From: Formosa sp. Hel1_33_131
GTDB taxonomy: Bacteria; Bacteroidota; Bacteroidia; Flavobacteriales; Flavobacteriaceae
Length of the DNA: 64,000 bases
NCBI GenBank assembly: GCA_949499105.1
Contig: CATEFX010000021.1
Coordinates: forward strand, 84,815 to 148,814
Direction of reading: 5' to 3'
A program made the translations under genes and the position numbers. The notes under the pieces are model-generated. The model made no database searches and was not told the origin of the DNA. It saw nothing but the letters and a program-made list of their open reading frames with translations. Below, piece by piece: positions 27,617 through 52,787 of this stretch (position 1 is its first letter; every line of letters begins with the position of its first letter).

Positions 27617-27714
27617 CAATTCGGGGTGTAGCGTAGCCCGGTTATCGCGCCACGTTTGGGACGTGGAGGCCGCAGGTTCGAATCCTGCCACCCCGACACA
27701 GAGGTCGTCACGCT
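27617..27714 (+). repeat. 98-bp direct repeat copy 1 (tRNA-Pro plus flanks)
   Basis: Same as 46799-46896 except one mismatch (27699 c vs 46881 a). Confidence 0.93.
27622..27696 (+). tRNA. tRNA-Pro (TGG)
   Basis: CGGGGTG...CACCCCG-A; anticodon stem-loop CCACG-TTTGGGA-CGTGG. Confidence 0.95.
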
Positions 27715-27765
27715 AAAAGCGTGACCACCCCGACACAGAGGTGGTCACGCTAGAAGCGTGACCAC
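27703..27765. repeat. Two REP-like hairpins downstream of tRNA-Pro
   Basis: gtcacgctaaaagcgtgac (27707-27725) and gtggtcacgctagaagcgtgaccac (27741-27765), each followed by 'cc(c)gaca'. Confidence 0.85.
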
Positions 27766-27776
27766 CCGACAAAAAT

Positions 27777-28358: not shown

Positions 28359-31300
28359 ATGAAACACAATTTTATAAGATTAGTATTCTTCTTATTTGTA
28401 ACATCAATTTTTGCTCAAGCAGATAAAGTATCTGTTTTGAATGATGACGATGGAATGAAGTTAGTTGTCAATGGCGAACACTTCATGATTAACGGTATGA
28501 ACTGGGATTATTTTCCTATTGGGACTAATTACTCCTATAGTTTATGGAAGCAATCGGATGATGTCATTAAGGCAGCATTGGATGCAGAAATGGGCTTATT
28601 GAAAAACATGGGCGTGAATGTCATAAGACAATATACAGGTGTCCAACCAAAATGGATACAGTATATCTATGAAAATTATGGTATTTATACCTTGTTGAAT
28701 CACTCGTTTGGACGATACGGTCTAACGGTGAACGGCGCATGGGAAGTAGTGACAGATTATAGAGACCCAGCAACTCAAGCGTTGTTAATGTCTGAAGCCA
28801 CTAAAATGGCACAAGACTATAAAGACACCCCCGGTTTGTTAATGTTCTTATTAGGGAATGAAAATAACTACGGACTTTTTTGGGCCGGTGCTGAAACCGA
28901 AGATTTCCCAGACGAAGCAGAAAAAATAGCTTTCATTGGAGAAGAACGTGGGCGTCCAATGTACAAGCTCATGAACGATGCTTCCATTAAAATGAAGACT
29001 ATTGATGGCTCCCATCCCATAGCAATCTGTAATGGAGATGTATTATTCATCGATATTATTGCTGAAGAATGTAAAAACATTGATGTTTTCGGAACCAATA
29101 TGTATCGCGGTGCTTCTTTTACAGATGCCTTCAAAACGGTTAAGGAGAAGTTAGACATGCCAATCATGCTGACGGAGTTTGGTGCAGATTCATTCAATGC
29201 AATCAAAAATGCAGAAGACCAAAAAATGCAAGCCTATTACATGGTTGAAAACTGGAAAGATATTTACCAGAATGCAGCAGGTCTAGGAAAAGCTGAAAAT
29301 GCCATTGGAGGTTTTACCTTTCAATTTAGTGATGGTTGGTGGAAATTTGGACAAACTAAAAATTTAGAAGTGCATGACAACAATGCATCATGGGCAAATG
29401 GAGGCTATTCATTAGATCTTGCACCTGGCGAAAACAATATGAATGAAGAGTGGTTTGGAATTTGTGCAAAAGGACCAACCGATGTCAGAGGCCTGTATAC
29501 GTTATATCCAAGAGCGGCCTATTATGCTTTAAAAGAAGCTCATCAATTAAATCCTTACGAAGAAGGTGTGGATGCGGAATTTGTGAAAAATCATTTTGAA
29601 AACATTGAATTAATGGGGGCTGTCCTTCGAGCTAGAGGCGACAAAGCGGCTTTAGGAGGCAATGAAAAAATTAAGCTAAGCAATATGAGAGCTGAGTTTA
29701 CAACCTTTAATACAGGCGGTAGTCTTATTACGACTCCCGACAATATCGATCCAAAGAATTCAGGCTACCCAGATCAACTTGGGTTTGATCATATGCAATC
29801 GTATTTCATTGGCGTGGAAGCGAACCCGACTTCTAGCATGAGAGCCAATGTTAATTTTAACATATTAGGTAATGTCGCTGATAATCCAATTGACGAAATA
29901 TTTTATGAAAATACAGGGCGTTCAATATCTGTAAATACAGATGATGGAAATGTAGAAATTACTGATCCAAACAGAGTAAAAATATACAATGCTGAATTTG
30001 ATTGGAATGCGAAAGAGTTTAATTTAAGAGGGTTTTATAGAACTGGACATTACCACTGGAGTTACGAAGGTGATTTCTTCGGTTTATACAGGGAAGCTAA
30101 CTATGGTCCAAATTTAGACCTTTATAATGGAGAAATTTCAGGAATTGAGGTCGATGGTAAAGGGGCTCTAAAAGGTTTAAAAGCCGCTTTTGGGTCTCAA
30201 CTTTGGTGGGGAGCTAACCCTGCAGTCCTATTGAAATATGGAACTAAACTAGGAAAATGGGATGTCACTGGGGTCTATCATGAAGATATTGATGATGTTG
30301 GAGAAGCGGTCACTTCGATTGCTGTACCACTTCCAAAAACACGTCGTGTGACTTTACATACCGCGAGAGAATTTGGAGATTTTATTTTTGAAGCCGGTGG
30401 TATTTGGGGTGGACAACCGTTAAACGGACGCGAATTTCAAATTGCAGAAGGAACGACTGATAACTACATCATTTATACCGATGAAATCGATGCAAAAGAT
30501 AACTGGGGTGCCAAAGCGAAGTTAACCTATCAAAAAGGAGCTTTTAAATGGTACGCACAAGGCGCAAGCATGGGCTTAGTTGCCAATGGCGGGACCGATC
30601 AAACACAAACATTTACGGGCTGGAAACTTAAGGATTCTGGAAGCGGAAATCAAAACAACTTCCTAACAGGGTTTTCATACATCATTGGAGATTTTGAAAT
30701 CGCACCTAACTTTCTATGGCAAAAACCAATTGTCGATGCAATGCCAAATGATATGAACGGCGGAACAGGACGTCTTAGAAATATTCAAGACGATCCATTT
30801 GCCGTAAGATCCAATAGAGAAACCACTGCCGGAGAAATTTTATTATCTTATGATCCGACTCCCGGCACTTGGATGTATGAATGGGACAACGACCGAGCAG
30901 AGGATGCTGAGTTTGCTTTTAACTTAGGGTTTATCTATCGCCATCACCCAACTGCGCAAGATGCAGCTATTGGTTTTTTAGCCAATCGTACTGCTTTTGC
31001 CTTTCCAAATGCTGCCCCTGCAAAAGATTTATGGGAAGCACATTCGCGAGTGGTCTCTAAAGTGAGTCCAGACCTCGGTTTGATCGCTAACTTCTATGCA
31101 GGTAATATACAGTCTACTGGTAGTGACGAACGTTTAGTTGAGCGCTATGGAGGCGATATTCGATTGATTTATAACAAACTGAAACTAACCCATACGTTTA
31201 AAGTTAACGATTGGGGACCTTTTGATTATCACCGTGATTTTAACTTGACATACCCTGTTCAATTAATGTTAGATCTATCGACCACTTTAGGAAAACCAGA

Positions 31301-31496
31301 TTGGTTTATCCTTCCAAATACTCAAGTAGGCTTACGTGGTACATGGCGTTCATTAAATCAATATTCGCCTCGTTACTCACCTAGTTTTGTACCAGAAAAC
31401 ACCTATCCACCAATACCGCCAATTAGTACTGTTGGCTTTGGATTTGGAAGCGAATGGGAAATTAGAACATACATACATATCAATATTGGTAAATAA
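28359..31496 (+). CDS. Secreted TIM-barrel glycosidase-like domain fused to C-terminal outer-membrane beta-barrel-like domain
   Basis: 1045 aa; signal peptide; 'LVVNGEHFMINGMNWDY', 'FLLGNENNYG' and 'IMLTEFGADSF' (clan GH-A type Glu motifs); C-terminal ~550 aa of beta strands ending 'EIRTYIHINIGK'. Confidence 0.65.
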   Translation: MKHNFIRLVFFLFVTSIFAQADKVSVLNDDDGMKLVVNGEHFMINGMNWDYFPIGTNYSYSLWKQSDDVIKAALDAEMGLLKNMGVNVIRQYTGVQPKWIQYIYENYGIYTLLNHSFGRYGLTVNGAWEVVTDYRDPATQALLMSEATKMAQDYKDTPGLLMFLLGNENNYGLFWAGAETEDFPDEAEKIAFIGEERGRPMYKLMNDASIKMKTIDGSHPIAICNGDVLFIDIIAEECKNIDVFGTNMYRGASFTDAFKTVKEKLDMPIMLTEFGADSFNAIKNAEDQKMQAYYMVENWKDIYQNAAGLGKAENAIGGFTFQFSDGWWKFGQTKNLEVHDNNASWANGGYSLDLAPGENNMNEEWFGICAKGPTDVRGLYTLYPRAAYYALKEAHQLNPYEEGVDAEFVKNHFENIELMGAVLRARGDKAALGGNEKIKLSNMRAEFTTFNTGGSLITTPDNIDPKNSGYPDQLGFDHMQSYFIGVEANPTSSMRANVNFNILGNVADNPIDEIFYENTGRSISVNTDDGNVEITDPNRVKIYNAEFDWNAKEFNLRGFYRTGHYHWSYEGDFFGLYREANYGPNLDLYNGEISGIEVDGKGALKGLKAAFGSQLWWGANPAVLLKYGTKLGKWDVTGVYHEDIDDVGEAVTSIAVPLPKTRRVTLHTAREFGDFIFEAGGIWGGQPLNGREFQIAEGTTDNYIIYTDEIDAKDNWGAKAKLTYQKGAFKWYAQGASMGLVANGGTDQTQTFTGWKLKDSGSGNQNNFLTGFSYIIGDFEIAPNFLWQKPIVDAMPNDMNGGTGRLRNIQDDPFAVRSNRETTAGEILLSYDPTPGTWMYEWDNDRAEDAEFAFNLGFIYRHHPTAQDAAIGFLANRTAFAFPNAAPAKDLWEAHSRVVSKVSPDLGLIANFYAGNIQSTGSDERLVERYGGDIRLIYNKLKLTHTFKVNDWGPFDYHRDFNLTYPVQLMLDLSTTLGKPDWFILPNTQVGLRGTWRSLNQYSPRYSPSFVPENTYPPIPPISTVGFGFGSEWEIRTYIHINIGK

Positions 31497-31507
31497 AAAA
31501 CTATAAA

Positions 31508-32971
31508 ATGAAAAATATAAAATTTATGTATTCAAAAGTTATGTTGCTCTCAGGCTTACTTTTTGTAGTGATGATGAGTTGTGAACGAGATATTACGGAC
31601 AAAGTAGAATTTGCGCATTTGACCAAATCAGGTGAGATTTTCACAGATTCTCCAATTGGACTTGGAAGTGATTTCTACTTTCCATACACAGGTTCAAAAC
31701 CAACCGCATGGTCAGTAGACGAAAGCGAAGGCTATGAAAGTGCCGCCTCTATGCGAATTGACGTTCCTAATGCCAACGATCCAGAAGGAAACTATGCTGG
31801 AGCCATATTTAGAGTTGATGGTGCTGGACGTGACCTCACCGAATTTGATGCTTTGACTTTTTGGGCGAAAGCCACCCAAGGCGTTGTTATTGGTGAAATA
31901 GGCTTTGGACAAGATTTTGGACTGAATAAATATCAGGTCAATGAAACAGATGTAAGCTTCAGTACTACTTGGCAAAAATACGTGATTCCAATTCCGGACG
32001 CTTCCAAACTTTTTGATGAAAGAGGGATGTTTTGGTATTCCGCAGGAACTCAAAATACAGGTGGAAATGCCTACTCTTTTTGGATTGATGAATTGAAATT
32101 CGAAAAATTAGGAACTATCGGTCAGTCAAGACCCGCTATTCAAAATGGTGAAGATGTTGTTAAAAATGTATTTGCAGGAATTAGTTTAGAATTAACAGGC
32201 TTCACACAAACATTCAACTTGGGTAACGGCATTGATAAGACAGTCAATGTAGCACCAAGTTACTTTGACTTTACATCTTCGGAACCGAGTATAGCTTTCA
32301 TAAATGAATTTGGAAACATCAGTGTTAGTAGTGGTACAGCCGTTATTACAGCGAGTTTGGGTGGTGTAGAAGCGGAAGGATCTTTGACTATCAATGCCGT
32401 CGGTCAGTTTGAACTAGCACCAACCCCAACTACAAACCCTAGTAATGTAATTTCTGTTTTTAGTGATTCTTATGAAAACATTCCTGTAGATTATTTTAAT
32501 GGCTATTGGGAACCTTATCAAACAACTCTAGGAGGTGAAATTATTATAAATGGACAAAATGTGATTAAGTTTACGGACTTTAATTTTGTGGGCACGAAAC
32601 TTATAACACCTCTAGATATTTCGGAAATGACCCATTTTAGTATTGATATATTAATGCCTGTAATTTTGCCAACGGATATTGATATGCTTATTGTTTTAAA
32701 AAATGAAAATTCTGCTGAGACAACTCTACAACAGCAGCGTATTGGTGGTCAAACATATCAATGGTCTAATCAAACAGGGGATATCACTGATACGGAAACC
32801 AATGCAACCTTTGAAGCAGGAGGCGTATGGAAAACCTTTAAAATTCCTCTTAGACCAACGTCAGAAACTGGTTTGGATAAGACAGGAGTTAATCTCATCA
32901 TCATTGAAAGGATAAAATCTTCTAACGTGACTGATTTACACATCGATAATATGTATTTCTTTAAAGAATAA
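31508..32971 (+). CDS. Surface glycan-binding-type lipoprotein (CBM-like and Ig-like segments)
   Basis: 487 aa; lipobox 'VVMMSCE'; beta-sandwich-like segments ('DLTEFDALTFWAKATQG', 'DISEMTHFSIDILMP'). Confidence 0.6.
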   Translation: MKNIKFMYSKVMLLSGLLFVVMMSCERDITDKVEFAHLTKSGEIFTDSPIGLGSDFYFPYTGSKPTAWSVDESEGYESAASMRIDVPNANDPEGNYAGAIFRVDGAGRDLTEFDALTFWAKATQGVVIGEIGFGQDFGLNKYQVNETDVSFSTTWQKYVIPIPDASKLFDERGMFWYSAGTQNTGGNAYSFWIDELKFEKLGTIGQSRPAIQNGEDVVKNVFAGISLELTGFTQTFNLGNGIDKTVNVAPSYFDFTSSEPSIAFINEFGNISVSSGTAVITASLGGVEAEGSLTINAVGQFELAPTPTTNPSNVISVFSDSYENIPVDYFNGYWEPYQTTLGGEIIINGQNVIKFTDFNFVGTKLITPLDISEMTHFSIDILMPVILPTDIDMLIVLKNENSAETTLQQQRIGGQTYQWSNQTGDITDTETNATFEAGGVWKTFKIPLRPTSETGLDKTGVNLIIIERIKSSNVTDLHIDNMYFFKE

Positions 32972-33001
32972 TAATTAAGAAAATATTAAAACAATAAAAA
33001 A

Positions 33002-33988
33002 ATGAATAAAAATAATAAAAAGAGAAAGCGTATAACAACAATTTTGTTGAAAACGCTCAGCTTAGTAAGCATTCTTATCGCCTTTAGTTGTAATACAGAC
33101 GAAACCCAAACGGTTGCAGTTTTTACAAACTTAGTAATGGCCGATGAGTTTGATGTTGAAGGCGCTCCTAATCCTGAAATTTGGAATTTCGATATCGGAA
33201 CGGGTCCAAACTCTGATGGCTGGGGGAATAATGAATTACAATATTACACCAACCGTTCTGAAAATGTAACCGTACAGAATGGGCTGCTAGTAATCTCCGC
33301 TATCGAAGAAGATTATAACGGTGCTTCATTTACATCGGCAAAATTGTTAACCAAAGGGAAATTTGAACAAGCCTATGGGCGTTTCGAAGCCCGTATCAAA
33401 GTACCAGGCGGATCGGGACTTTGGCCTGCATTTTGGCTCTTAGGAGAAAACAGCGATGTGGATGGTTGGCCTCAGTGTGGTGAAATCGATATTATGGAGT
33501 ACCGCCGACAAGAACCAACCTTGGTGAGCGGATCCATTCATGGCCCTGGATACTCTGGTGAAACAGATCCTCAAGGGCAAGTCACTAAAAGTTACGATTT
33601 AGGAAATGATCGTTTTGATGCTGGGTTTCACATTTTTGGAATCGAATGGGGCCCTGAATACATCAATTATTACATAGACGATGTCTTGTACAATCAAATT
33701 ACACCCTCTGATATCGAAGTCACACCAACCGACGCTGTTTACACCTTAAACGATGCTGTGGAAGCAGTAGAAGCGATGGAAGCGACTGAAGATACTCCAG
33801 CTGTTGAGGCTGTTGAAGCAAAGGAAGCCACTGTTATTACAGGGGATTGGGTTTTCAATAAACCGTTTTACATCATAATCAATTTGGCTGTTGGAGGCAA
33901 CTTCCCTGGGAATCCAGATAGTGGAGAAACATTTCCACACAACATGCTAGTCGATTATGTGAGAGTATATAAAAATAGTAACAACTAA
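33002..33988 (+). CDS. GH16 family endo-beta-1,3-glucanase (laminarinase-like) lipoprotein
   Basis: 328 aa; 'FSCN' lipobox; catalytic 'GEIDIMEYRRQEP'; 'GSGLWPAFWLLGEN'; 'IINLAVGGNFPGNPD'. Confidence 0.93.
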   Translation: MNKNNKKRKRITTILLKTLSLVSILIAFSCNTDETQTVAVFTNLVMADEFDVEGAPNPEIWNFDIGTGPNSDGWGNNELQYYTNRSENVTVQNGLLVISAIEEDYNGASFTSAKLLTKGKFEQAYGRFEARIKVPGGSGLWPAFWLLGENSDVDGWPQCGEIDIMEYRRQEPTLVSGSIHGPGYSGETDPQGQVTKSYDLGNDRFDAGFHIFGIEWGPEYINYYIDDVLYNQITPSDIEVTPTDAVYTLNDAVEAVEAMEATEDTPAVEAVEAKEATVITGDWVFNKPFYIIINLAVGGNFPGNPDSGETFPHNMLVDYVRVYKNSNN

Positions 33989-33993
33989 TAAAA

Positions 33994-36312
33994 ATGACAA
34001 TGAAAAATTTATTCAAAAAAATTAAACAAGTTTCGATTTTAATCTTGGCAATCAGTTTTATAGGTTGTGACGATGATGACGCTATTTTGCCAAAACTAAC
34101 AGCTGGCTTTACGCACACAATTAATGCCGATACAGGCACCGTAACGTTTATTAACACGTCCACAAATGCATCGATGTACGCATGGGATTTTGGAGATGAA
34201 ACTTCTTCAGCCCTTATTAACCCGGTGAATGTGTATGAAAACGGAACCTATATTGTGGTTTTAAAATCTTCAAATGTTGCAGGAGCGTTTGATATCTTTA
34301 CCGATGAGATCGTAATTCTAATACCGGAAATCGCCACCTTACCAATTACTTTTGATGGTGAAAACACGAAATACGACCCTACAGTTTTTGATGGGACCAC
34401 CTTTGACATCCTTACAAATCCAGACCTTACAGGCACAAATTCTGTAGAATCAAACGTAGGAGCCATCACAAATAGTGGGGCGACTTATGAAGGTTTGTTT
34501 TTTGAATTAGGGGCCGCAGTCGATTTAACGACTGAAAAATCAATAAAAATGAATTTTTGGTCAGATAAAGCAGTCGATGTTTTATTAAAGCTTGAAGATG
34601 GAACTGCAGCGAACTCCGAAGCAACTGCGAGCCATACCGGAACTGGATGGGAAGAATTGATGTTCACATTTAATTCAGCAGCGAGCTACAACCAATTAAC
34701 GCTCTTTGTAGACGGTGCAGGAACAACCGATGGTACATTCTATTTTGATGATATAATGCAAGTTGTATCGCCTCCAACACCATGTACTCCAGAAACAGTT
34801 GAGTCGCTTGCCGCAGTCGATTTTAATGTCACATTTACGACCGACCCAACAGCAAGTATTGTGAATGATGGGACTACCTTTGAGTGGATTGATAATCCAG
34901 ATTTTAATAACACTGTAAATACATCTTGTAAAGTTGGAAAAATCACAAAACTTGGAACCAACCCTTGGGATAATAACCAAATTGTTTTAGATGCTAAATT
35001 AGATTTAGTTGCCAACCAAGGTTTAAAAATCAAAGTATGGTCTGCTAAAGCAAATACTGAAGTTAGAATTAAGTTAGAAGAAAATGGAACGCCTGCGAAC
35101 TTCACTGAATTATCGTTAACCACCTCCCTAACGAGTGAATGGGAAGAATTAAGCTTTGCTTTTACAGGGGACGATACGGATAAATATGATAAAGTCGTTT
35201 TGTTCTTTGATTTGAATGCAAACAATACCGACACCTATTATTTCGATGATTTAACTTTATACGGAACAGGGACGGCACCAGCGGGGTGTATTGCAGAAAC
35301 AGCACAGTCGCTTAGTGCAGCAAACTTTGAATTAACATTCCAAAACGACCCAACCGCTAGTATTATTTCTGACGGTGCAGGTTTTGCATGGATTGATAAT
35401 CCAGACTTTGATAACACAGTAAATACCTCTTGTAAAGTTGGTCAGATAGACAGAACGAGTGCAGCGCAGTATGCAAACAATCAAATTATTTTAGATGCTA
35501 AATTAGATTTTAACTCAAATTCAGGTTTTAAACTAAAAGTATGGTCACCAACTGCTAGTACAAACGTATTATTAAAATTAGAGGATCAGACTAATTCAGG
35601 TGTTTTTAAAGAAGTTTTTGCAACCACTTCATCAAGCAGCGCAGGTGAATGGGAAGAACTTACTTTTAATTTTACAAGTGCCGATTCTAATAAGTTTGAT
35701 AAAATTGTAGTGTTCTTTGAATTAGATTCAGCCACTGAAGAAACCTATTATATTGACGACCTTAAACTTTACGGCGACGGTTCTGGCGGCGGCGGCGGCG
35801 GCGGTGCATATAACCTTACGCTTCCTATTGATTTTGAGACATCAGGATTTGGAGCAAGTTGGACTTGGAATGTGTTTGAAAATGATTCTAACCCACCAGT
35901 AGAATACGTAACAAATCCAAACGCATCAGGAATAAATACTTCAAATACTGTGGCTAAAATCACGGCACTTCAAGCAGGGCAACCCTGGGTTGGTTGTGAA
36001 ACTGCACATGGCGAAATGGGAATTACGTGGGATCTTTCTGCTTCAAATGCGATCATTAAGATTATGGTTTACAAAACCGTCATTAGTGATGTTGGTATCA
36101 AATTAGTAAATCCTGCCGGAGGTGCACAACCAGAAATCAAAGTTCCAAACACTGTAATTAATGCATGGGAAGAATTAACATTTGATTTTAGCAGTCGTAT
36201 TGGAAATGGATTAGATGGCTCTACAAATATTGATCAAATAGTTGTATTCCCTGATTTCAATGCAAGAACATCAGATAATGTAGTGTATTTCGATAACGTT
36301 ACGTTTCAATAA
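33994..36312 (+). CDS. Multidomain lipoprotein: PKD plus tandem CBM-like domains
   Basis: 772 aa; 'SFIGCDDD' lipobox; PKD 'NTSTNASMYAWDFGDE'; repeated '..ADFN.TF..DPTASI..DG..F.WIDNPDF.NTVNTSCKVG'; Gly6 linker. Confidence 0.75.
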   Translation: MTMKNLFKKIKQVSILILAISFIGCDDDDAILPKLTAGFTHTINADTGTVTFINTSTNASMYAWDFGDETSSALINPVNVYENGTYIVVLKSSNVAGAFDIFTDEIVILIPEIATLPITFDGENTKYDPTVFDGTTFDILTNPDLTGTNSVESNVGAITNSGATYEGLFFELGAAVDLTTEKSIKMNFWSDKAVDVLLKLEDGTAANSEATASHTGTGWEELMFTFNSAASYNQLTLFVDGAGTTDGTFYFDDIMQVVSPPTPCTPETVESLAAVDFNVTFTTDPTASIVNDGTTFEWIDNPDFNNTVNTSCKVGKITKLGTNPWDNNQIVLDAKLDLVANQGLKIKVWSAKANTEVRIKLEENGTPANFTELSLTTSLTSEWEELSFAFTGDDTDKYDKVVLFFDLNANNTDTYYFDDLTLYGTGTAPAGCIAETAQSLSAANFELTFQNDPTASIISDGAGFAWIDNPDFDNTVNTSCKVGQIDRTSAAQYANNQIILDAKLDFNSNSGFKLKVWSPTASTNVLLKLEDQTNSGVFKEVFATTSSSSAGEWEELTFNFTSADSNKFDKIVVFFELDSATEETYYIDDLKLYGDGSGGGGGGGAYNLTLPIDFETSGFGASWTWNVFENDSNPPVEYVTNPNASGINTSNTVAKITALQAGQPWVGCETAHGEMGITWDLSASNAIIKIMVYKTVISDVGIKLVNPAGGAQPEIKVPNTVINAWEELTFDFSSRIGNGLDGSTNIDQIVVFPDFNARTSDNVVYFDNVTFQ

Positions 36313-36468
36313 TTTATCAATAGGACTAGGGAATAGCTTTCTCTAGCCTTATTAGATTACTACAGTCAATAGTGCAGTGAAAATTAATACAAATAATATA
36401 TCCGTAAAAGAATTGCTGTTATTTTCACTTATTAAAATAAATGAATTAAAATGGACATAAAAAAGGTT

Positions 36469-36502
36469 AGGATATAGTTCATTCCACCTAACCTTTTTTT
36501 AT
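36469..36502 (+). terminator. Rho-independent terminator
   Basis: 'aaaaaaggttagg...cctaaccttttttta'. Confidence 0.85.
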
Positions 36503-36573
36503 TTTTGAAACAATAAATTAATTTTTATAAAAAACCAATCAACTCTTAGGAGTTAAACGATATTAAAAAACTA

Positions 36574-36608
36574 AAAAACCTCTCCAAAAATAGCTACGGA
36601 GGTTTTTA
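36574..36608 (+). terminator. Hairpin with T-run immediately upstream of the GH149-like gene
   Basis: 'aaaaacctctccaaaaatagctacggaggttttta'. Confidence 0.55.
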
Positions 36609-36623
36609 TTGACAATCAAATAA

Positions 36624-39600
36624 ATGACAAATAACACTATTTTTTTAGATAAAAATAAAGACACCGATCAGGTCAAAGATATTGAAGGTACTTTAGTCAA
36701 TATAGACAATGAAGTCTTTTATAAAATCTCGAACAGTGATAAAATGAGACCATTTTTCATGAGCATTGTGAGTGATTCTAATCATTGGATGTTTATCTCC
36801 AGCAACGGAAGTTTAACCGCTGGAAGAAAAAATTCTGAATTCGCATTATTTCCGTATTACACAGACGATAAGATTACTGAAGCTGCTGAAATTACAGGAA
36901 GTAAATCTATTTTTCAAGTTCATAAAAATAGTAAAACTCATTTATGGGAACCTTTTTCCGATCGTTTTCAAGGGATGCACAACATCACTCGAAATTTGTA
37001 TAAAAACGAGTATGGTAACAAAGTATTATTTGAAGAAATCAACCACGATTTAGGACTGACGTTTCAATACCAATGGAATTCTACAAACACTTTTGGTTTT
37101 ATAAAAAAATCAAAGCTTATCAATACTTCGGATTCAAACGTTGAAATCAATCTATTGGATGGGATTCAAAATATTTTACCTTATGGCGTTGGGAGCGATT
37201 TACAAAATGCAAGTAGTAATCTTGTAGATGCTTACAAACGTAATGAGTTAGAGAAAAGTTCTGGATTAGGGATTTATGCTTTAAGCGCAATTATTGTAGA
37301 TAAGGCGGAACCTAGCGAAGCTTTAAAAGCCAATATTGTTTGGTCCTTAGGATTAGATCAACCTAAACATTTAGTATCGTCTCTTCAAGTTGAATCGTTT
37401 CGGAAAAATCAAGACCTTCAAGAAGAAACCGATGTGAAAGCAGAAAAAGGCGCTTATTTTGTCAATTCAACCATTGTTTTAACGGCTGAAGAAAGCAAAG
37501 AATGGATGCTAGTTGCTGAGGTTAATAAAAATCATTCAGCAATTGCAAAATTGATCCATGAGATTAAAACGAATGACGGTTTATCAGAACTCATCAACCA
37601 GAAAATTGAAAAAGGAACTGAGCGTCTCATTGCTTTAAATGCAGCCTCTGATGGGTTGCAACTTTCAGCAGATAAATTTAGAGATACTCGTCATTTTTCA
37701 AACACCTTATTCAACATCATGCGTGGGGGTATTTTTGATGATAATTATCAAATTGAAAAATGGGATTTTAAAACCTATCTTTTAAAAGCCAATAAAAAAG
37801 TAGCTAGGAAAACAGAGGACTTGGTTGAGAAACTACCTGAAGTGTTCTCACTTTCTGTACTACAAGAATTAGCATATCAAATTGATGACACAAACTTTAG
37901 ACGTTTGTGTTTTGAATACATGCCTTTAAAATTTAGCCGACGACATGGCGATCCGAGCCGTCCTTGGAATAAATTTTCAATCAATACCAAAAGCGAGATT
38001 GATGGTTCAAAAATCCTTGATTACGAAGGAAATTGGCGTGATATTTTCCAAAACTGGGAAGCATTAGCACATTCATACCCGGCGTTTATTGAGAGTATGA
38101 TCCATAAATTTTTAAATGCCACGACTTTTGATGGTTACAATCCGTATCGAGTGACAAAAGGCGGGTTTGATTGGGAAACGATCGAACCAGACGATCCATG
38201 GTCGTACATTGGCTATTGGGGCGATCACCAAGTGATTTATCTATTAAAGTTTTTAGAGTTTATTGAAAATCATCAGCCTGGCAAACTAGCAAGCTATTTT
38301 GATAAAGATATGTTTGTATATGCAAATGTTCCTTACAAAATTAAAAGCTACGACGCACTGCTTGAAAACCCAAAAGATACCATCGAATTTGATGAAGCAT
38401 TGGATCTTAAAATCCGTGAACAAAGAGTTGAACTTGGTGCAGATGGTGCTTTACTTCGAGATGAAAATCGTTTTATTGTAAAAGTCAATTTTATTGAAAA
38501 AATATTAGCAACCACTTTAGCAAAACTTTCAAACTTTATTCCAGAAGGCGGAATTTGGATGAACACACAACGTCCAGAATGGAACGATGCCAACAATGCG
38601 TTAGTTGGAAGTGGCGTATCAATGGTTACTTTGTATTATCTCCGACGTTTCCTTAAGTTTTTTGATACTGTAGTGGTTCAATCAAACTTAGAAACTGTTG
38701 AGGTTTCAAAAGAGTTAGTGACTTTCTTTGATTCTATTTCAACGACCTTTAACGACCATCAACATTTACTGTCGGGTCGAATCAACGATACAGATCGAAA
38801 ATTGATTTTAGATGCCTTAGGAAATGCAGGAAGCAGCTATAGAAATCAAGTTTATAAGAATGCGTTTTCAGGAAGAAAAAATGAAATATCCATCCAAGAT
38901 CTAAAAGCGTTTATAGCCGTGAGTCTTCAATATTTAGAACACTCTATTGAAGCAAATAAACGAGACGATAATTTATACCACGCGTATAATTTAATGACGA
39001 TAAACGATTCTAAGAGCGTTTCAATTTCATATTTAGATGAAATGTTAGAAGGGCAAGTGGCGGTCTTAAGTTCAAAATATTTATCGACCAATCAGTCCTT
39101 ATCTGTGTTGAATGCCATGAAAAGCAGCAAATTGTTCCGACCAGATCAGTATAGCTACTTATTGTATCCTAACAAAGCGTTGAAAGGATTTATTGAGCGA
39201 AATACAATTTCTGCTTCAGCTGTTTCATCCTCTAAATTACTAGAACAGTTAGTGAGCGATGGAAATGTTCAAATTTTAGAGAAAGATGTCAATGGTGCTT
39301 ATCACTTTAATGGGAGTTTTAAAAATGCCATTGATTTAAAAGTCGCTTTAAATGAACTTTCTCAAACATCTTATAAAGAACTCATTGCGTTAGAAACGCC
39401 CAAAATTCTTCAAATTTTTGAAGAGGTCTTCAATCACAAATCGTTTACGGGTCGTTCCGGAACCTTTTATGGATATGAAGGTTTAGGTTCTATTTACTGG
39501 CACATGGTTTCTAAACTACAGTTGTCGGTACTTGAAACCTGTCACGCAGCATTTGAAACGGAAACCAATGAAGCCGTTAGAGGCCACTTATTAGATCATT

Positions 39601-40097
39601 ATTACGAAATCAATGCTGGAATTGGCGTTCACAAATCACCAAAGTTATATGGTGCTTTCCCAACCGATCCTTATTCGCATACCCCTGCAGGCAAAGGCGC
39701 TCAACAACCTGGAATGACAGGTCAGGTAAAAGAAGATGTTTTATCTCGTTTTGGTGAATTTGGAGTGGAAGTTTCGGATGGAAAACTAGGTTTTAATCCT
39801 CGTTTGTTACGTGGAAATGAATTTTTAAAAGAGAGTAAAACATTTCATTACATCGCGCTTCCTAAAAAGAAAAACAGCATTTTAGTTTCCAAAGATTCTT
39901 TGTGTTTTACCTATTGTCAAGTGCCTATTACGTACACAATTTCTGACGAAGAGAGTTTAACGGTAAAATTCAGTAATGGTAATTCAACAACCTTTAAAAC
40001 GTTAAGCTTAGATGCTGAAACGAGTGCACATGTATTTAATCGTACAGGGGATGTTGTAGAACTAAATGTTCACGTTAAAAAGAGTCGTTTAAAATAA
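36624..40097 (+). CDS. GH149-like beta-1,3-glucan phosphorylase (GH94-related), cytoplasmic
   Basis: 1157 aa, no signal peptide; cellobiose-phosphorylase-like N-terminus ('NHWMFISSNGSLTAGRKNSEFALFPYYTDDKI'), 'KGGFDWETIEPDDPWSYIGYWGDHQVIYLLKFLE'; laminarin-type neighbours. Confidence 0.72.
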   Translation: MTNNTIFLDKNKDTDQVKDIEGTLVNIDNEVFYKISNSDKMRPFFMSIVSDSNHWMFISSNGSLTAGRKNSEFALFPYYTDDKITEAAEITGSKSIFQVHKNSKTHLWEPFSDRFQGMHNITRNLYKNEYGNKVLFEEINHDLGLTFQYQWNSTNTFGFIKKSKLINTSDSNVEINLLDGIQNILPYGVGSDLQNASSNLVDAYKRNELEKSSGLGIYALSAIIVDKAEPSEALKANIVWSLGLDQPKHLVSSLQVESFRKNQDLQEETDVKAEKGAYFVNSTIVLTAEESKEWMLVAEVNKNHSAIAKLIHEIKTNDGLSELINQKIEKGTERLIALNAASDGLQLSADKFRDTRHFSNTLFNIMRGGIFDDNYQIEKWDFKTYLLKANKKVARKTEDLVEKLPEVFSLSVLQELAYQIDDTNFRRLCFEYMPLKFSRRHGDPSRPWNKFSINTKSEIDGSKILDYEGNWRDIFQNWEALAHSYPAFIESMIHKFLNATTFDGYNPYRVTKGGFDWETIEPDDPWSYIGYWGDHQVIYLLKFLEFIENHQPGKLASYFDKDMFVYANVPYKIKSYDALLENPKDTIEFDEALDLKIREQRVELGADGALLRDENRFIVKVNFIEKILATTLAKLSNFIPEGGIWMNTQRPEWNDANNALVGSGVSMVTLYYLRRFLKFFDTVVVQSNLETVEVSKELVTFFDSISTTFNDHQHLLSGRINDTDRKLILDALGNAGSSYRNQVYKNAFSGRKNEISIQDLKAFIAVSLQYLEHSIEANKRDDNLYHAYNLMTINDSKSVSISYLDEMLEGQVAVLSSKYLSTNQSLSVLNAMKSSKLFRPDQYSYLLYPNKALKGFIERNTISASAVSSSKLLEQLVSDGNVQILEKDVNGAYHFNGSFKNAIDLKVALNELSQTSYKELIALETPKILQIFEEVFNHKSFTGRSGTFYGYEGLGSIYWHMVSKLQLSVLETCHAAFETETNEAVRGHLLDHYYEINAGIGVHKSPKLYGAFPTDPYSHTPAGKGAQQPGMTGQVKEDVLSRFGEFGVEVSDGKLGFNPRLLRGNEFLKESKTFHYIALPKKKNSILVSKDSLCFTYCQVPITYTISDEESLTVKFSNGNSTTFKTLSLDAETSAHVFNRTGDVVELNVHVKKSRLK

Positions 40098-40112
40098 ATA
40101 TTTCAAGTCATC

Positions 40113-41405
40113 ATGAGAAGATCAAAACAATTATTAGTTTCAACACTGCTTGTTTTTCTCATGGTGTCTTGTAAAAACAAGCAATCAAAACAAAGTACTA
40201 CCAACCAACAATCTCAAAAAGAAGTGACAGCTAAAGATATATTAGGAAATTCAAACTATTTAGCAATCTCTTATGGAGGGTATCGAAAATCGTCTAGAGA
40301 TATTCAACCCACTATTGAAGAGCTAAAGGAAGATATGAGAATTCTTCATGCGATGAATATCAGAATCTTACGCACCTATAATGTTCAATTGGCGCAGGCT
40401 TCAAATATGCTAAAGGCAATTCGAGAACTAAAAAAGGAAATTACTGGTTTTGAAATGTATGTGATGTTGGGAACTTGGATTGATTGTAAAAATGCATGGA
40501 CTGATCAGCCTTTGGACCACCATCAAGAGAGTGAACACAATGCCGCCGAAATTGCACGTGCAATTGCTTTGGCAAATGAGTATCCTGAAATTGTTAAAGT
40601 CATTTCAGTTGGAAATGAAGCCATGGTCAAATGGGCAGCGTCCTATTTTGTGCAACCCGTTGTTATTTTAAAATGGGTCATGCACTTACAAGACTTAAAA
40701 ACAACGGGTGACCTTTCTAAAGACCTTTGGATCACAAGCTCCGATAATTTTGCGTCTTGGGGTGGAGCTGAGTCTCAATACCACGTCGAAGCTCTTGAAA
40801 AACTAATGGCAGCTGTGGATTATGTCTCAGCGCATACCTACCCAATGCACGATACGCATTACAACCCTGTTTTCTGGGGTGTTTTTGGAACTGAGACAGA
40901 ATTGTCAAGTTTAAAACGAATTGAGGTCGCAATGAATCGTGCCACGGACTATGCCGCTTCACAAATTGATAGTGTGGCGAGTTATATGAAACGTTTGGGA
41001 ATTGATAAACCAATTCATGTTGGAGAAACTGGATGGGCAAGTGCTTCAAACCGACAATATGGCTCTAACGGCTCCAAAGCGACGGATGAATACAAGGAAG
41101 CCATTTATTACCACAATATGAGAGTATGGTCTGATGAAACCAAAAGGTCATGTTTCTATTTTGAAGCTTTTGATGAACCTTGGAAAGATGCTCAAAACAT
41201 TGGAGGTTCTGAAAACTATTTTGGCTTGTTTACTGTCGATGGAAAAGCCAAATATGTGCTCTGGGATTTAGTTGATAAAGGAGTTTTTGATGGATTGACG
41301 CGTAATGGAAATCCGATTACAAAAACCTATAATGGCAATAAGGAAGCCTTATTACTAGAGGTCGAATTACCGCCTTTGAAAAATGAAATTATAATGAACC
41401 AATAA
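40113..41405 (+). CDS. GH17 family beta-1,3-glucanase lipoprotein
   Basis: 430 aa; lipobox 'LMVSCK'; 'ISVGNEAMVKW' and 'HVGETGWAS' catalytic motifs. Confidence 0.88.
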   Translation: MRRSKQLLVSTLLVFLMVSCKNKQSKQSTTNQQSQKEVTAKDILGNSNYLAISYGGYRKSSRDIQPTIEELKEDMRILHAMNIRILRTYNVQLAQASNMLKAIRELKKEITGFEMYVMLGTWIDCKNAWTDQPLDHHQESEHNAAEIARAIALANEYPEIVKVISVGNEAMVKWAASYFVQPVVILKWVMHLQDLKTTGDLSKDLWITSSDNFASWGGAESQYHVEALEKLMAAVDYVSAHTYPMHDTHYNPVFWGVFGTETELSSLKRIEVAMNRATDYAASQIDSVASYMKRLGIDKPIHVGETGWASASNRQYGSNGSKATDEYKEAIYYHNMRVWSDETKRSCFYFEAFDEPWKDAQNIGGSENYFGLFTVDGKAKYVLWDLVDKGVFDGLTRNGNPITKTYNGNKEALLLEVELPPLKNEIIMNQ

Positions 41406-41406
41406 T

Positions 41407-42894
41407 ATGAATCGTATAAAAATATATCACCTTTTAATTTTAGTAGGAATGCTCACAGCATGTACAACCAAACAACCCTTACAAGTCACCGTGTACGAAA
41501 CGTCTGCGAGTGGAAATAAATTAACTGAAATCTCAGAATTTAGCACGTCAGAAAACGCCTCTGAAATAGGGCTTTTTCCAGATAAGACCTACCAGACAAT
41601 CACTGGTTTTGGGGGCTCATTCACCGAATCATCAGCCTATTTACTAAATCGTTTGAGTAAAAAAAATAGAGCCCTAATACTCGATGCTTATTTTAGTAAA
41701 AAAGGGGCAAATTATTCATTGACGCGAACCCACATTAGTTCCTGTGATTTTTCATTATCAAATTACACCTATGCGCCAATTGCCGATGATCTGGAGTTAA
41801 AACATTTTAGCGTCGAAGAAGATGAAGCCGATTTAATTCCGATGATCAAAGAGGCGATGGCGGTCTCTGAAGATGGTTTTAAAATTATAGCATCGCCATG
41901 GACAGCACCGCCTTGGATGAAAGACAATAATAAATATGTTGGCGGAAAATTAGTAGATGAACACTACGGTACTTTCGCCTTGTTTTTCTCAAAATATTTA
42001 GACGCCTACAAAGCAGAAGGCATTGATATTTGGGGGTTAACGCCTGTAAATGAGCCGCATGGAAATGGTAACAACTGGGAAAGCATGCACTTTTCACCAG
42101 AAGAAGAAACCGATTTTGTACAAAATCATTTAGGTCCCACACTTGAAGCCAATGGAAATGGAGCGACCAAAATACTTGGATACGATCAAAACAGAGCGGG
42201 TCTAAAGGAATGGGTCGATTCAATGTTTAAGGACGAAGCTTCATCAAAGTATTTTGATGGGACAGCCATTCATTGGTACGAAAGTACTTTTGATTATCTC
42301 CCAGAAGCTTTGCAGTATGCACACAAAAAAGCACCCAATAAATATCTGATCGAAACGGAAGGCTGTGTAGATTCAGAAATTCCTAAATGGCAAGATGATG
42401 CTTGGTATTGGAAAAAAGAATCCACAGATTGGGGCTGGGATTGGGCGCCGCCACAAGACAAACATTTACACCCTAAATATGCGCCTGTCAATCGCTATGC
42501 AAGAGATATCATTGGTTGCCTAAACAATTGGGTCGATGGATGGGTCGATTGGAACATGGTGCTCGATAGACAAGGCGGTCCAAACTGGTTTAAAAACTGG
42601 TGCGTCGCTCCCGTAATCGTAGATCCAGATAACGATGAAGTCTATTTCACGCCTTTATATTACACAATGGCACATTTTAGTAAATACATGCGTCCTGGGG
42701 CTCAAATCATTGATGTCAAAAATACAGATGCTTCTTTAATGGTAACAGCTGCTAAAAATCCTGATGGATCGATTGCAGTGATTATTTTTAATGAAGGAGA
42801 AAATTTAAAAACTTTTGAACTTTCCTTGGGAGATGCTTCAAAATCAATATCCATACAACCACAAGCAATTCAAACAATACTACTCACTAACTAA
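41407..42894 (+). CDS. GH30 family beta-glucosidase / beta-1,6-glucanase lipoprotein
   Basis: 495 aa; 'TGFGGSFTESSAYLL', 'GLTPVNEPHG', 'LIETEGCVD'; starts one base after the previous stop. Confidence 0.92.
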   Translation: MNRIKIYHLLILVGMLTACTTKQPLQVTVYETSASGNKLTEISEFSTSENASEIGLFPDKTYQTITGFGGSFTESSAYLLNRLSKKNRALILDAYFSKKGANYSLTRTHISSCDFSLSNYTYAPIADDLELKHFSVEEDEADLIPMIKEAMAVSEDGFKIIASPWTAPPWMKDNNKYVGGKLVDEHYGTFALFFSKYLDAYKAEGIDIWGLTPVNEPHGNGNNWESMHFSPEEETDFVQNHLGPTLEANGNGATKILGYDQNRAGLKEWVDSMFKDEASSKYFDGTAIHWYESTFDYLPEALQYAHKKAPNKYLIETEGCVDSEIPKWQDDAWYWKKESTDWGWDWAPPQDKHLHPKYAPVNRYARDIIGCLNNWVDGWVDWNMVLDRQGGPNWFKNWCVAPVIVDPDNDEVYFTPLYYTMAHFSKYMRPGAQIIDVKNTDASLMVTAAKNPDGSIAVIIFNEGENLKTFELSLGDASKSISIQPQAIQTILLTN

Positions 42895-42906
42895 TACCAA
42901 TTTATT

Positions 42907-45243
42907 ATGTCAACACATTCAGAAAAAGTTCCCTTCGGCCAAAAAATAGCCTTTGGCATTGGCATGCTTGCAAACCAAATGTTTCCAGCTGCATTGGGAA
43001 TCTTTATGGTGGTCTTAGTTCAAGATTTAGGGTTTCCAGGTTGGATGTGGGGTGTTATTTATTTTTTCCCAAGAATATTTGATTGTTTTACGGACCCAAT
43101 CATGGGTTTTATTTCTGATAACACAAAATCACGATGGGGTAGACGTCGACAATATGTAATTTTTGGTGGTCTTATGATGGGAATTGCATTTATCATTATG
43201 TGGCAACTTTTCAGAGAAAATGGTGTCGATTATAATTTTGTTTACTTCATGATTTGGTCGTTTGTATTTTACTTAGGATTGACCATTTTTAGTGTGCCTT
43301 ATGTCGCAATGGGGTATGAGATGAGTAATGATTTTCATGAGCGTACGAGTATTATGGCAACTGCTCAATGGATTGGCCAATGGGCATGGGTGATCGCACC
43401 CTGGTTTTGGGTGATTATGTATGATCCATCTTGGTTTGAATCGGCAGAAGTTGCGACTCGATCCCTTGCTTTTTGGGTCGGTATCGTTTTTACAATTTGC
43501 GCTCTTGTTCCTGGTATATTTATTAAAAGTAAATCCACATTAAATGAAGACTATTCTCCTCTAAATTTAAAAAATATTGGAAATAGTTTAAAAGAAATAG
43601 GTTCTGGTTTTTCAAGTGCTTTTAAAATGAAACCATTTAGAAAACTATGTATCGCTACTTTTTTAGTGTATAACGCTTTTATGACAATTGCATCATTTTC
43701 ATTCTTTATCATTGTTTATCATCTTTTTGAAGGCGATGCAGGTGCTGCCGGGATATGGCCAACGCTATTTGGGTGTTTAGGAGCCCTTGGAACTACTTTT
43801 TTGGTTATTCCGATCGTGACGCGTATGTCAAAAAATATGGGTAAAAAGAAAGCCTTTTTGATATCACAGGGAATTTCTGTTCTAGGGTATATAATGTTAT
43901 GGTTTCTCTTTATTCCAGGTAAACCTTATATGTTCATTTTTGCTCTCCCATTTTTCTCCTTTGGTATCGGAAGTCTATTTGTATTAATGATGTCTATGAC
44001 AGCAGATGTGATTGATCTAGATGAACTTAAGACGGGATTGAGAAGAGAAGGTACCTTTGGTGCGATCTACTGGTGGATGGTAAAATTTGGTTTTGCTATT
44101 GCTGGAGGATTAAGCGGCGTTATTATGAGTTCAGTAGGATTTGACTCAGGAGTTACTGTTCAACCAGAAGGGGCTATCGATGGATTGCGATTATCGTTTT
44201 CAGGGATTCCAATTCTTGGAACGGTCATAGCCATGCTTGTGATGCGCAATTATAGCGTTACAGAAGAAAGTGCTGGAATCGTTCGAGCTGAATTAGATAA
44301 ACGCAACAATTTATCACAAAACCCAACCTCTTTTTATCAAACCGATAAATTAGGTTCTTTAGTAGATTCAGGCCTCCAAATTGACAGCTCAACAGAGATT
44401 GATTTCACATCCAAAACGGATGCTGAAATTAAAGCCTTGTTTTCAACACATTTAAATAAGGGTCTTCATGGGTTGTGTTTTAGCCCCTATTTAGAAGGAC
44501 AAAATATTGGGGATCAATTATCTAAATCACAAATTAGTCAACGAATGGACATTATTGCGCCTTACACCAATTGGGTGCGTTCTTTTTCTTGTACAGAGGG
44601 GAATGAGCAGACTCCAAAAATCGCGCATAAAAAACACTTAAAAACAATGGTGGGTGCTTGGATCAGTGATGATAAAGATCAAAACGAAAAAGAAATTAAT
44701 GCGCTAATCAATCTTGCAAAATTTGGTTTGGTTGATATTGCAGTGGTAGGAAATGAAACGTTAATGCGAGAAGAATTAACAGAAAACGAACTACTTGAAT
44801 ATATACATCGTGTCAAACAAGCGATTCCGGGAGTTCCTGTGACTTATGTAGATGCCTATTATCAGTTTATTGAGCGGCCTCAACTTATCGACGCTTGTGA
44901 TGTTATTTTAGTGAACTGTTATCCATTTTGGGAAGGCTGTAGTATTGAGCAATCGGCAACGTATCTAAAGCAAATGTATGCGGTGACTCAAAAAGCAGCG
45001 AAAGGCAAACAAGTCATTATTTCAGAAACTGGGTGGCCAAACCAAGGTGACAGCACGAAAGATGCGCAGCCTTCTGAAATTAATGCGATGAAATATTTTA
45101 TAAATACAACCAATTGGGCGCAACAAAATGAAGTGCCACTATTTTATTTTTCTTCTTTTGATGAATCCTGGAAAGTCCATCATGAAGGCGATGTTGGAGC
45201 TCGATGGGGACTTTGGGATACCAACGAAAAATTAAAATTTTAA
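42907..45243 (+). CDS. MFS/GPH-family sugar transporter fused to C-terminal GH17 domain
   Basis: 778 aa; residues ~1-455 polytopic ('FPRIFDCFTDPIMGFISDNTKSRWGRRRQYV'); residues ~480-778 GH17-like ('AVVGNETLMREEL', 'VIISETGWPNQG'). Confidence 0.88.
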   Translation: MSTHSEKVPFGQKIAFGIGMLANQMFPAALGIFMVVLVQDLGFPGWMWGVIYFFPRIFDCFTDPIMGFISDNTKSRWGRRRQYVIFGGLMMGIAFIIMWQLFRENGVDYNFVYFMIWSFVFYLGLTIFSVPYVAMGYEMSNDFHERTSIMATAQWIGQWAWVIAPWFWVIMYDPSWFESAEVATRSLAFWVGIVFTICALVPGIFIKSKSTLNEDYSPLNLKNIGNSLKEIGSGFSSAFKMKPFRKLCIATFLVYNAFMTIASFSFFIIVYHLFEGDAGAAGIWPTLFGCLGALGTTFLVIPIVTRMSKNMGKKKAFLISQGISVLGYIMLWFLFIPGKPYMFIFALPFFSFGIGSLFVLMMSMTADVIDLDELKTGLRREGTFGAIYWWMVKFGFAIAGGLSGVIMSSVGFDSGVTVQPEGAIDGLRLSFSGIPILGTVIAMLVMRNYSVTEESAGIVRAELDKRNNLSQNPTSFYQTDKLGSLVDSGLQIDSSTEIDFTSKTDAEIKALFSTHLNKGLHGLCFSPYLEGQNIGDQLSKSQISQRMDIIAPYTNWVRSFSCTEGNEQTPKIAHKKHLKTMVGAWISDDKDQNEKEINALINLAKFGLVDIAVVGNETLMREELTENELLEYIHRVKQAIPGVPVTYVDAYYQFIERPQLIDACDVILVNCYPFWEGCSIEQSATYLKQMYAVTQKAAKGKQVIISETGWPNQGDSTKDAQPSEINAMKYFINTTNWAQQNEVPLFYFSSFDESWKVHHEGDVGARWGLWDTNEKLKF

Positions 45244-45261
45244 CCATTAAATTACATTTAA

Positions 45262-46170
45262 ATGTCATACAGAGAAGATCGAAAATTTTCACCAAAACAA
45301 ATCGAACACCCCAAAAAGTCAGTCGTTGAAGTTCCTAAACAACCCGAAATTCGTTTAGAAGAACGATGGCGAAACACGTTGAATAATGGGATGCATGGGT
45401 TGTGTTTTAGTATGTATGAAGATGGTCAAGGCCCTGGAAATGAAATTTCAGAAGCTCAAGTAGATCGACGGATGCAAATCATAAAGTCTCACACCAAATG
45501 GGTGCGTTCCTTTTCGTGTATTGAAGGAAATGAACACATCCCCCGTGTTGCTCATAAACATGGCATTAAAACCTTGGTGGGTGCTTGGCTCGGCGACGAT
45601 TTAGAAAAAAATGAAGAAGAAATTGAAGCCTTAATTAAATTAGCAAAAGAAGGCTATGTAGATATTGCTGCTGTTGGTAATGAAGTCATGTACCGTGAAG
45701 ACCTTACAGAAGAACAGTTGTTAGAGTATATCAATAGAGTCAAAAAAGCGTTACCTGGTATCCCAGTTGGGTATGTTGATGCGTATTATGAATTTTCACA
45801 CCGACCAAAAATCACTAAAGCATGCGATGTGATTTTAGCAAATTGCTATCCGTATTGGGAAGGCTGCCCTATTCATTATTCAATAGCCCATATGAAAAAA
45901 ATGTTTGACCAAGCCACCGAAGCGGGACAAGGGAAAAAAGTAATTATTACTGAAACGGGTTGGCCAAGCGAAGGTGGTAGTTTAAGAGGGGCCTTTGCCT
46001 CTCGTGAAAATGCGATGAACTATTTCATAAACACCCAAGAATGGGCTGAAAATAATAATGTCGAGTTCTTTTATTTCTCCTCTTTTGACGAATCTTGGAA
46101 AGTAGGCGCCGAAGGCGATGTTGGAGCCTATTGGGGACTTTGGGATAAAAATGAACAGTTAAAATTCTAA
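45262..46170 (+). CDS. Stand-alone GH17 protein without signal peptide, paralogous to the C-terminus of the upstream fusion
   Basis: 302 aa; 'AAVGNEVMYRED', 'VIITETGWPSEGG'; extensive similarity to residues 480-778 of the 42907-45243 product. Confidence 0.9.
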   Translation: MSYREDRKFSPKQIEHPKKSVVEVPKQPEIRLEERWRNTLNNGMHGLCFSMYEDGQGPGNEISEAQVDRRMQIIKSHTKWVRSFSCIEGNEHIPRVAHKHGIKTLVGAWLGDDLEKNEEEIEALIKLAKEGYVDIAAVGNEVMYREDLTEEQLLEYINRVKKALPGIPVGYVDAYYEFSHRPKITKACDVILANCYPYWEGCPIHYSIAHMKKMFDQATEAGQGKKVIITETGWPSEGGSLRGAFASRENAMNYFINTQEWAENNNVEFFYFSSFDESWKVGAEGDVGAYWGLWDKNEQLKF

Positions 46171-47430: not shown

Positions 47431-48018
47431 ATGACTTCCAATAGAAAAATAAAAGATACTGATTTAGTAAAAAGGCTTCATAATAATGATCAAGCCGCTC
47501 TAGCTATTATTTATAAAGAGCACTGGGAAATAATGTATTTGGCAGCCTATAACTTATTGAGAGATAAGTCTATTAGTGAGGACATTGTTCAGGATGTATT
47601 TGTGTCTTTCTGGCAAAAAAGAAATACATTAGAAATTAAAGTATCTATCAGGAGTTATCTATATACTAGTACCACTTATAAGGTTTACGACTATTTTAGA
47701 AAAAACAAAAAAATGATTAAAGAGGAGCTTTTTAATCATTTTGATGAAAAAGTCCAAGTTTCAAATCCAGAAACTAAACTTATGCATAAAGAATTAGTGG
47801 GTTTTATAGATTCTCTAATTAATCAGCTACCTCCAAAATGCAAGGAAGTTTTTAAATTAAGCAGAGAAGAACAGTTGACTAATCAAGAGATAGCGCAACG
47901 ATTAAGTGTTTCCAAAAGAACAGTGGAAGGGCATATTACTAAAGCCTTAATGCTTTTAAGAAATTCGTTAGGAGTTAATGTTAGTATTGAATTTATGTCA
48001 TTTATTTCCAATTACTAG
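47431..48018 (+). CDS. RNA polymerase ECF sigma factor (sigma-70 family)
   Basis: 195 aa; 'SEDIVQDVFVSFWQKRNTL', 'LPPKCKEVFKLSREEQLTNQEIAQRLSVSKRTVEGHITKAL'. Confidence 0.93.
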   Translation: MTSNRKIKDTDLVKRLHNNDQAALAIIYKEHWEIMYLAAYNLLRDKSISEDIVQDVFVSFWQKRNTLEIKVSIRSYLYTSTTYKVYDYFRKNKKMIKEELFNHFDEKVQVSNPETKLMHKELVGFIDSLINQLPPKCKEVFKLSREEQLTNQEIAQRLSVSKRTVEGHITKALMLLRNSLGVNVSIEFMSFISNY

Positions 48019-52776: not shown

Positions 52777-52787
52777 ATTAAAAAATC

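Follow-up and report, generated by a model that had tools for sequence, protein, structure and literature searches.

What does a glycosidase that carries some 600 further residues of predicted β-barrel do at the head of a β-glucan operon that has no SusC/SusD pair? The question is raised by a gene of Formosa sp. Hel1_33_131 in the window, the whole stretch of 64,000 nucleotides that was analyzed. The initial annotation described a protein of 1,045 amino acids with a signal peptide, and the ORF was found exactly at 28359-31496 on the plus strand, with a Sec-type signal peptide. On the basis of structure models, the protein appears to combine a clan GH-A enzyme and an outer-membrane β-barrel in one chain. 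About 600 bases of noncoding DNA lie 5' of the ORF, preceded by two apparent tRNA genes. Short near-identical hairpin-like repeats (ggtcgtcacgctaaaagcgtgaccacc) were seen at 27690-27775 of the window, directly 3' of an apparent tRNA gene. The fused gene heads a same-strand operon (28359-46170), which consists of the following genes.

28359..31496, plus strand: whole fused gene (signal peptide, GH-A domain, and predicted outer-membrane β-barrel), 1,045 aa, ATG start
31508..32971, plus strand: lipoprotein, probably surface glycan-binding, with a weak bacterial Ig-like match and a lipobox with an acidic run; homologue in 81 of 81 loci
33002..33988, plus strand: GH16 lipoprotein, probably a surface endo-β-glucanase (PF00722, E 6e-22), with an acidic run after Cys
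33994..36312, plus strand: PKD-CBM lipoprotein, probably surface glycan-binding (PF18911, PF02018), with CDDDD after the lipobox
36624..40097, plus strand: GH149 β-1,3-glucan phosphorylase, cytoplasmic (NCBIfam NF058639, 1801 bits against a cut-off of 1150)
40113..41405, plus strand: GH17 lipoprotein, probably periplasmic (PF00332), with no acidic run after Cys
41407..42894, plus strand: GH30 lipoprotein, β-1,6-glucanase-like, probably periplasmic (PF02055; NF053856 below its cut-off)
42907..45243, plus strand: MFS sugar transporter fused to a C-terminal GH17 (PF13347 and PF00332)
45262..46170, plus strand: GH17 without a signal peptide (PF00332)

The GH16, GH149, GH17, and GH30 genes support the view that the fused gene heads a β-glucan locus. 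The claim that this locus lacks SusC/SusD held for the operon, which is consequently not a PUL by the SusC/SusD definition, but it failed for the window and for 16 of 75 loci. In the window, a SusC/SusD pair lies at 49369-54296, about 3 kb past the operon, within a cluster of ECF sigma, FecR, SusC, SusD, and sulfatase genes (47431-55808) that is probably a separate locus for a sulfated glycan. The genome of the window (G000, 86.6% complete) has three SusD genes, none of them inside the operon and one next to a GH5 with a T9SS tail; when the SusC of a syntenic laminarin locus was compared with this genome, the best hit was only 36% identical.

The gene content of the operon is that of a known laminarin PUL. 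The SusC/SusD laminarin PULs named "variant B" and "variant 1" share GH16, GH149, GH17, GH30_1, and MFS-GH17 with it (PMC6298971, PMC10108472, PMC6246565). In contrast to these, most of the loci studied here have a LuxR-type regulator and no SusC/SusD at the head, and the GH-barrel gene comes first among the structural genes. An expressed NS4 MAG was earlier noted to contain a laminarin PUL that lacks susCD (PMC10108472), CAZyme clusters that have GH149 but not susCD have also been noted (PMC5827456), and the "GH0" of published laminarin PULs (PMC10108472) may be the fused gene. The fused gene itself has been listed as a GH2 β-glycosidase of laminarin PULs in Muricauda (PMC13188888). The protein had been proposed as a previously undescribed route; this stands for the barrel, of which no description was found in openly accessible papers, but not for the gene, which already had this GH2 name. 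Likewise, no glycosidase-barrel fusion was described in the literature searched, subscription papers aside. The MFS-GH17 fusion FbGH17B of Formosa, of the same kind as the one in this operon, has already been described (PMC11005184); it also joins an enzyme to a transporter of this pathway, but at the inner membrane, whereas the GH-barrel fusion belongs to the outer membrane. The GH-A enzyme, the outer-membrane barrel, and the PUL are each of known kinds, and it is the barrel that is newly noted.

The enzyme half was delimited by the following features.

28359..28418, plus strand: signal peptide, residues 1-20, without a lipobox, as read from the sequence
28422..29558, plus strand: clan GH-A (β/α)8 catalytic domain, residues 22-400 (PF02836, Foldseek, VIA)
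28857..28862, plus strand: N167-E168, predicted acid/base motif (GNENN), invariant in 76 sequences
29175..29177, plus strand: E273, predicted nucleophile (TEFG), invariant in 76 sequences

PF02836 (GH2 TIM barrel) matched residues 71-284 with an E value of 2e-5, above the Pfam cut-off. The two features that place a protein in clan GH-A, a (β/α)8 fold and an Asn-Glu pair after β4 with a Glu after β7, were both found, and the strands predicted by AlphaFold end right before the catalytic residues (E160-166 and E269-274). The N-terminal TIM-barrel glycosidase with NEN and TEFG motifs proposed in the initial annotation was thus recovered by AlphaFold and Foldseek, with N167, E168, and E273 invariant; the lack of a glycosidase fold, which would have spoken against it, was not observed. 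Foldseek ranked GH158 first, followed by GH157 laminarinases and GH2 glucuronidases. The VIA scores of GH2 glucuronidases, a GH5 mannanase, GH157, and GH158 were tied (Z 26-28 over about 290 residues), and no family stood out in the profile comparison (GH158(Pro), E 6e-4; BuGH158, E 5e-3; glucuronidase, E 1e-4). Similarity to GH72 glucanosyltransferases was weak and was seen in two members. N136, E137, and E220 are essential for BuGH158, and N167-E168 and E273 match N136-E137 and E220 in motif (PMC7157763). GH158 (BuGH158 and GH158(Pro)) and GH157 (LaGH157) share with the enzyme half the TIM barrel of clan GH-A, the Asn-Glu acid/base, the Glu nucleophile, and a β-1,3-glucan setting. However, their solved members have no outer-membrane barrel, and the sequence similarity is marginal and tied with that of GH2 glucuronidases. 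The GH2 β-galactosidases and β-glucuronidases share the TIM-barrel domain, but the window protein lacks the sugar-binding and Ig-like domains that GH2 enzymes have at the N terminus: its TIM barrel begins right after the signal peptide, PF02836 is the sole Pfam match, and the outer-membrane barrel follows. We read the GH2 name in PMC13188888 as a fold-level label only, and the enzyme half as a GH-A family of its own that acts on β-1,3-glucan. Activity on β-1,3-glucan is likely because of the synteny with GH16, GH149, GH17, and GH30, the nearest folds (GH158 and GH157), and the invariant Glu pair.

The C-terminal part of the window protein had no match in Pfam. A model of residues 415-1045 was predicted by AlphaFold with 76 sequences, and the following features were placed on it.

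29670..31493, plus strand: predicted outer-membrane β-barrel domain, residues 438-1045, 24-26 strands (AlphaFold, fold matches, alternation)
30045..30131, plus strand: near-invariant predicted outer loop, residues 563-591 (GHYHW..EGDFFGLY..NYGPNLD), mean entropy 0.20 bits
30198..30218, plus strand: invariant predicted outer loop, residues 614-620 (QLWWGAN), mean entropy 0.00 bits
30573..30650, plus strand: conserved predicted outer loop, residues 739-764, mean entropy 0.42 bits
31212..31250, plus strand: near-invariant predicted outer loop, residues 952-964 (WGPFDYHRDFNLT), mean entropy 0.08 bits

The model consisted almost entirely of long antiparallel strands and was of medium confidence (mean pLDDT 72, pTM 0.71). 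Twenty-six strands were counted, of which two short ones lie mid-barrel, so that 24 are possible. In VIA-align, all 50 of the matches listed were outer-membrane barrels; the top one among them was the alginate exporter AlgE (Z 16.0, rmsd 4.6, 275 residues aligned), and others were Occ porins (Z about 14.5), ushers (Z 12-14), maltoporin, chitoporin, and ScrY (Z 12.7-13.3), as well as Campylobacter MOMP and OprC. AlgE, Occ porins, maltoporin, and chitoporin conduct saccharides or acids through barrels of 16-18 strands; unlike the window protein, they carry no fused enzyme, and they are only about 10% identical to it in sequence. The alternation of hydrophobicity along the strands (hydrophobic outward, polar inward) exceeded that of 2,000 of 2,000 within-strand shuffles, and the linkers between strands alternated between long (median 20) and short (median 2) ones (p 1e-4). 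No match was found in a PDB sequence search with the full protein or the barrel profile, so the assignment rests on fold and amphipathicity. Closure was judged from the fold matches, and the inside and outside faces were assigned by hydrophobicity. We predict that the domain is a closed, amphipathic, antiparallel outer-membrane β-barrel. This agrees with the outer-membrane-protein-like C terminus claimed at first, and soluble β-sandwich domains were not seen in the model. The barrel starts near residue 438, however, not at about 480 as had been proposed. The full-length AlphaFold model had a pTM of only 0.51, so the arrangement of the two domains is not fixed by it.

For the barrel, Foldseek gave BtuB and ZnuD as nearest, but the TM-scores were low, and we do not take this to mean membership of the TonB-dependent receptors. 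PF07715 and PF00593, the plug and barrel families of TonB-dependent transporters and SusC, did not match the protein, and a search of the genome for PF00593 did not pick up the gene. No autotransporter family matched the protein either, and its 24-26 strands compare with the 12 of type Va translocator barrels. Por_Secre_tail was absent; the C terminus is the last barrel strand, with no T9SS sorting domain.

The outer loops bear on whether the barrel is a conduit or an anchor. Such loops are usually the most variable part of outer-membrane barrels. Here, four long outer loops were highly conserved across genera, and positions with at least 95% identity made up 45% of the outer loops and 45% of the catalytic domain. 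Because loops are normally variable, this conservation suggests a conserved ligand, with glycan binding or passage rather than mere anchoring. With sides assigned by hydrophobicity, 48% of the inward-facing and 23% of the lipid-facing positions reached at least 95% identity; by the same assignment, the lumen has few aromatic residues, unlike the "greasy slide" of maltoporin. On balance, passage of substrate through the barrel is slightly more likely than not, and the enzyme-tethered porin proposed in the initial annotation is plausible.

In addition, we examined relatives that lack the barrel. In 11 genomes, the GH domain occurs alone as a protein of about 440-470 aa, 48-59% identical and with a lipobox, whereas the fused forms begin with an ordinary signal peptide: that of the window protein (MKHNFIRLVFFLFVTSIFAQ, followed by A) has no lipobox, and the pattern was absent from 97 of 99 rows of fused relatives. 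In a FastTree tree of the GH domain, the barrel-less forms fell in at least two places, as a clade (0.95) nested in a fused clade (0.99) and as a clade (0.98) beside a fused sequence (0.91). Barrel and lipid anchor therefore replace each other, with at least two interchanges on the tree. One gene (L117:2025-3464) has a signal peptide of the fused type but stops after the GH domain, with a short remnant of the barrel behind it; here, loss of the barrel may be in progress.

These relatives also bear on the side of the membrane. In Flavobacteriia and Bacteroidia, lipoproteins of the cell surface are marked by an acidic run after Cys, a signal that is little studied outside these groups. The run was present in 94-100% of SusD and SGBP proteins, 99% of the CBM lipoproteins, 87% of GH16, and 22-33% of GH17 and GH30, but in 0 of 13 barrel-less rows by pattern; these rows include three genomes counted twice. 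A further relative, in G646, is borderline (CSDSDRV, with the start codon misplaced by the ORF caller), and in G374 the genome's own SusD keeps the acidic run. Both ends of the barrel lie on the short-turn side by the linker pattern of the window protein, and the short-turn side of outer-membrane proteins is the periplasm. Since the N terminus of the barrel is on this side and the barrel-less lipoproteins have no surface-export signal, the enzyme half is likely to reside on the periplasmic face of the outer membrane. The description of this half as secreted is probably wrong.

The fusion is widespread. A scan of species genomes gave at least 586 stretches related to the fused gene, the best 80 of which were 67-86% identical and nearly all full length. 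The CBM-like lipoprotein had a homologue in all 81 loci and was the next gene in the orders read; GH16 was found in 74 and GH149 in 58 of the 81, some loci being cut by contig ends. The barrel profile hit 35 of 395 Bacteroidota genomes, with full-length hits in frames of 1,028-1,084 aa, i.e., fused. With this profile, no full-length barrel-only homologue was found in the 395 genomes, and the remaining rows were fragments cut short by contig ends or stop codons. A divergent GH-barrel fusion (36% identical) from another family, at a contig end and without its N terminus (L157:523-3330), suggests that the fusion is old. Two distant small GH-A lipoproteins (L119:6145-7203 and L120:6550-7545, 23-28% identical) lie beside GH149 and GH17 and are possibly another GH-A branch for β-1,3-glucan. 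A contig assigned to a Rhodobacteraceae MAG (L020) carries the operon at 86% identity, with the gene in two ORFs of 871 and 155 aa; it probably belongs to Flavobacteriaceae and was misbinned.

The association with SusC/SusD varied. Among 75 informative loci, 51 had a neighboring Y_Y_Y/LuxR-type regulator but lacked SusC/SusD in the cluster of the gene itself, 16 had SusC/SusD and binding proteins upstream, and 8 had neither; in L077, which the script filed otherwise, a divergent SusC lies beyond the regulator. Ten loci were viewed more widely, and three of them had SusC/SusD. In family f82, three barrel-less forms stand beside SusC/SusD in SusC-SusD-GH16-GH-GH149 loci (G374, G645, and, as far as the contig goes, G646), and SusC/SusD is missing from the immediate surroundings of four fused relatives, as though either entry system could take the place of the other. 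No outer-membrane transporter was recognized next to the barrel-less lipoproteins of family f90 (G499, G706, and G708) or of G390, indicating that the enzyme can do without both barrel and SusC/SusD. The neighbors of the f90 genes are gyrase subunits and a PLP enzyme, which rules out a split barrel hidden next door. The proposal that the barrel acts in place of SusC/SusD is not general, as the fused gene also lies directly downstream of SusC/SusD pairs. Simple replacement fits f82, but it is weakened by the Flavobacteriaceae loci with both systems and by f90 with neither nearby.

In the mechanism that we propose, the surface GH16 would cut laminarin outside the cell, and the surface binding proteins would retain it. 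The β-1,3-gluco-oligosaccharides would bind the conserved outer loops and cross the polar lumen of an integral outer-membrane barrel of about 24-26 strands, from which the GH-A domain would hang on the periplasmic side. The tethered enzyme would cut or transglycosylate the oligosaccharides as they arrive, GH17 and GH30 would complete periplasmic debranching and cutting, and the MFS-GH17 at the inner membrane and GH149 in the cytoplasm would come last. Of this picture, the computations show the two-domain architecture and its conservation, the operon, the exchange of barrel and lipid anchor, and the conserved loops and lumen, and the side of the enzyme, its substrate, and transport are inferred. 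Taken jointly, the modeled architecture, the periplasmic location of its enzyme, and the handling of glucan by its barrel have roughly an even chance of being correct. Alternatively, the barrel may be an anchor only, which holds a periplasmic β-1,3-glucanase near whichever TonB-dependent transporter brings the glucan. The swaps of barrel and lipid anchor, at least two on the tree, indicate that anchoring is at least one job of the barrel, and many loci also carry SusC/SusD, with three SusD genes in the genome of the window. However, 600 residues would be a high price for an anchor, conservation of the outer loops equals that of the catalytic domain, and the positions in the lumen vary less than those that face the lipid. 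We consider a role as anchor alone rather unlikely.

The order of signal peptide, passenger, and C-terminal barrel resembles type V secretion, and the GH-A domain could be passed through its own barrel to act on the cell surface, where laminarinases of PULs are expected and where BuGH158 is predicted to be located (PMC7157763). The difference in strand number from type Va barrels and the barrel-less relatives, which lack the surface-export signal found on GH16, SusD, and CBM lipoproteins, make this autotransporter-like display improbable. Export or remodeling of a cell-made glucan, with the GH-A domain as a trimming enzyme or transglycosylase, would suit AlgE as the closest VIA match among those listed and the weak GH72 similarity. 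Nevertheless, no glycan synthase or glycosyltransferase was recognized in the operon, its neighboring genes are degradative, and in Formosa, laminarin induces laminarin PULs that resemble the operon in content (PMC6246565); this reading is very improbable.

Laminarin ranks among the largest carbon flows of the ocean, and explanations of how Bacteroidota take it up rely almost entirely on SusC/SusD transporters. The fused gene, until now annotated as an ordinary glycosidase, is conserved in marine relatives of Flavobacterium, and the swap of barrel for lipid anchor offers a clear case in which genetics can test what the barrel does. More tentatively, and at less than even odds, we suggest a single-chain enzyme-porin: a barrel that conducts glucan to its own laminarinase below would give many marine Bacteroidota a β-glucan route independent of SusC/SusD, in which cutting on arrival, not TonB energy, may draw in the substrate.
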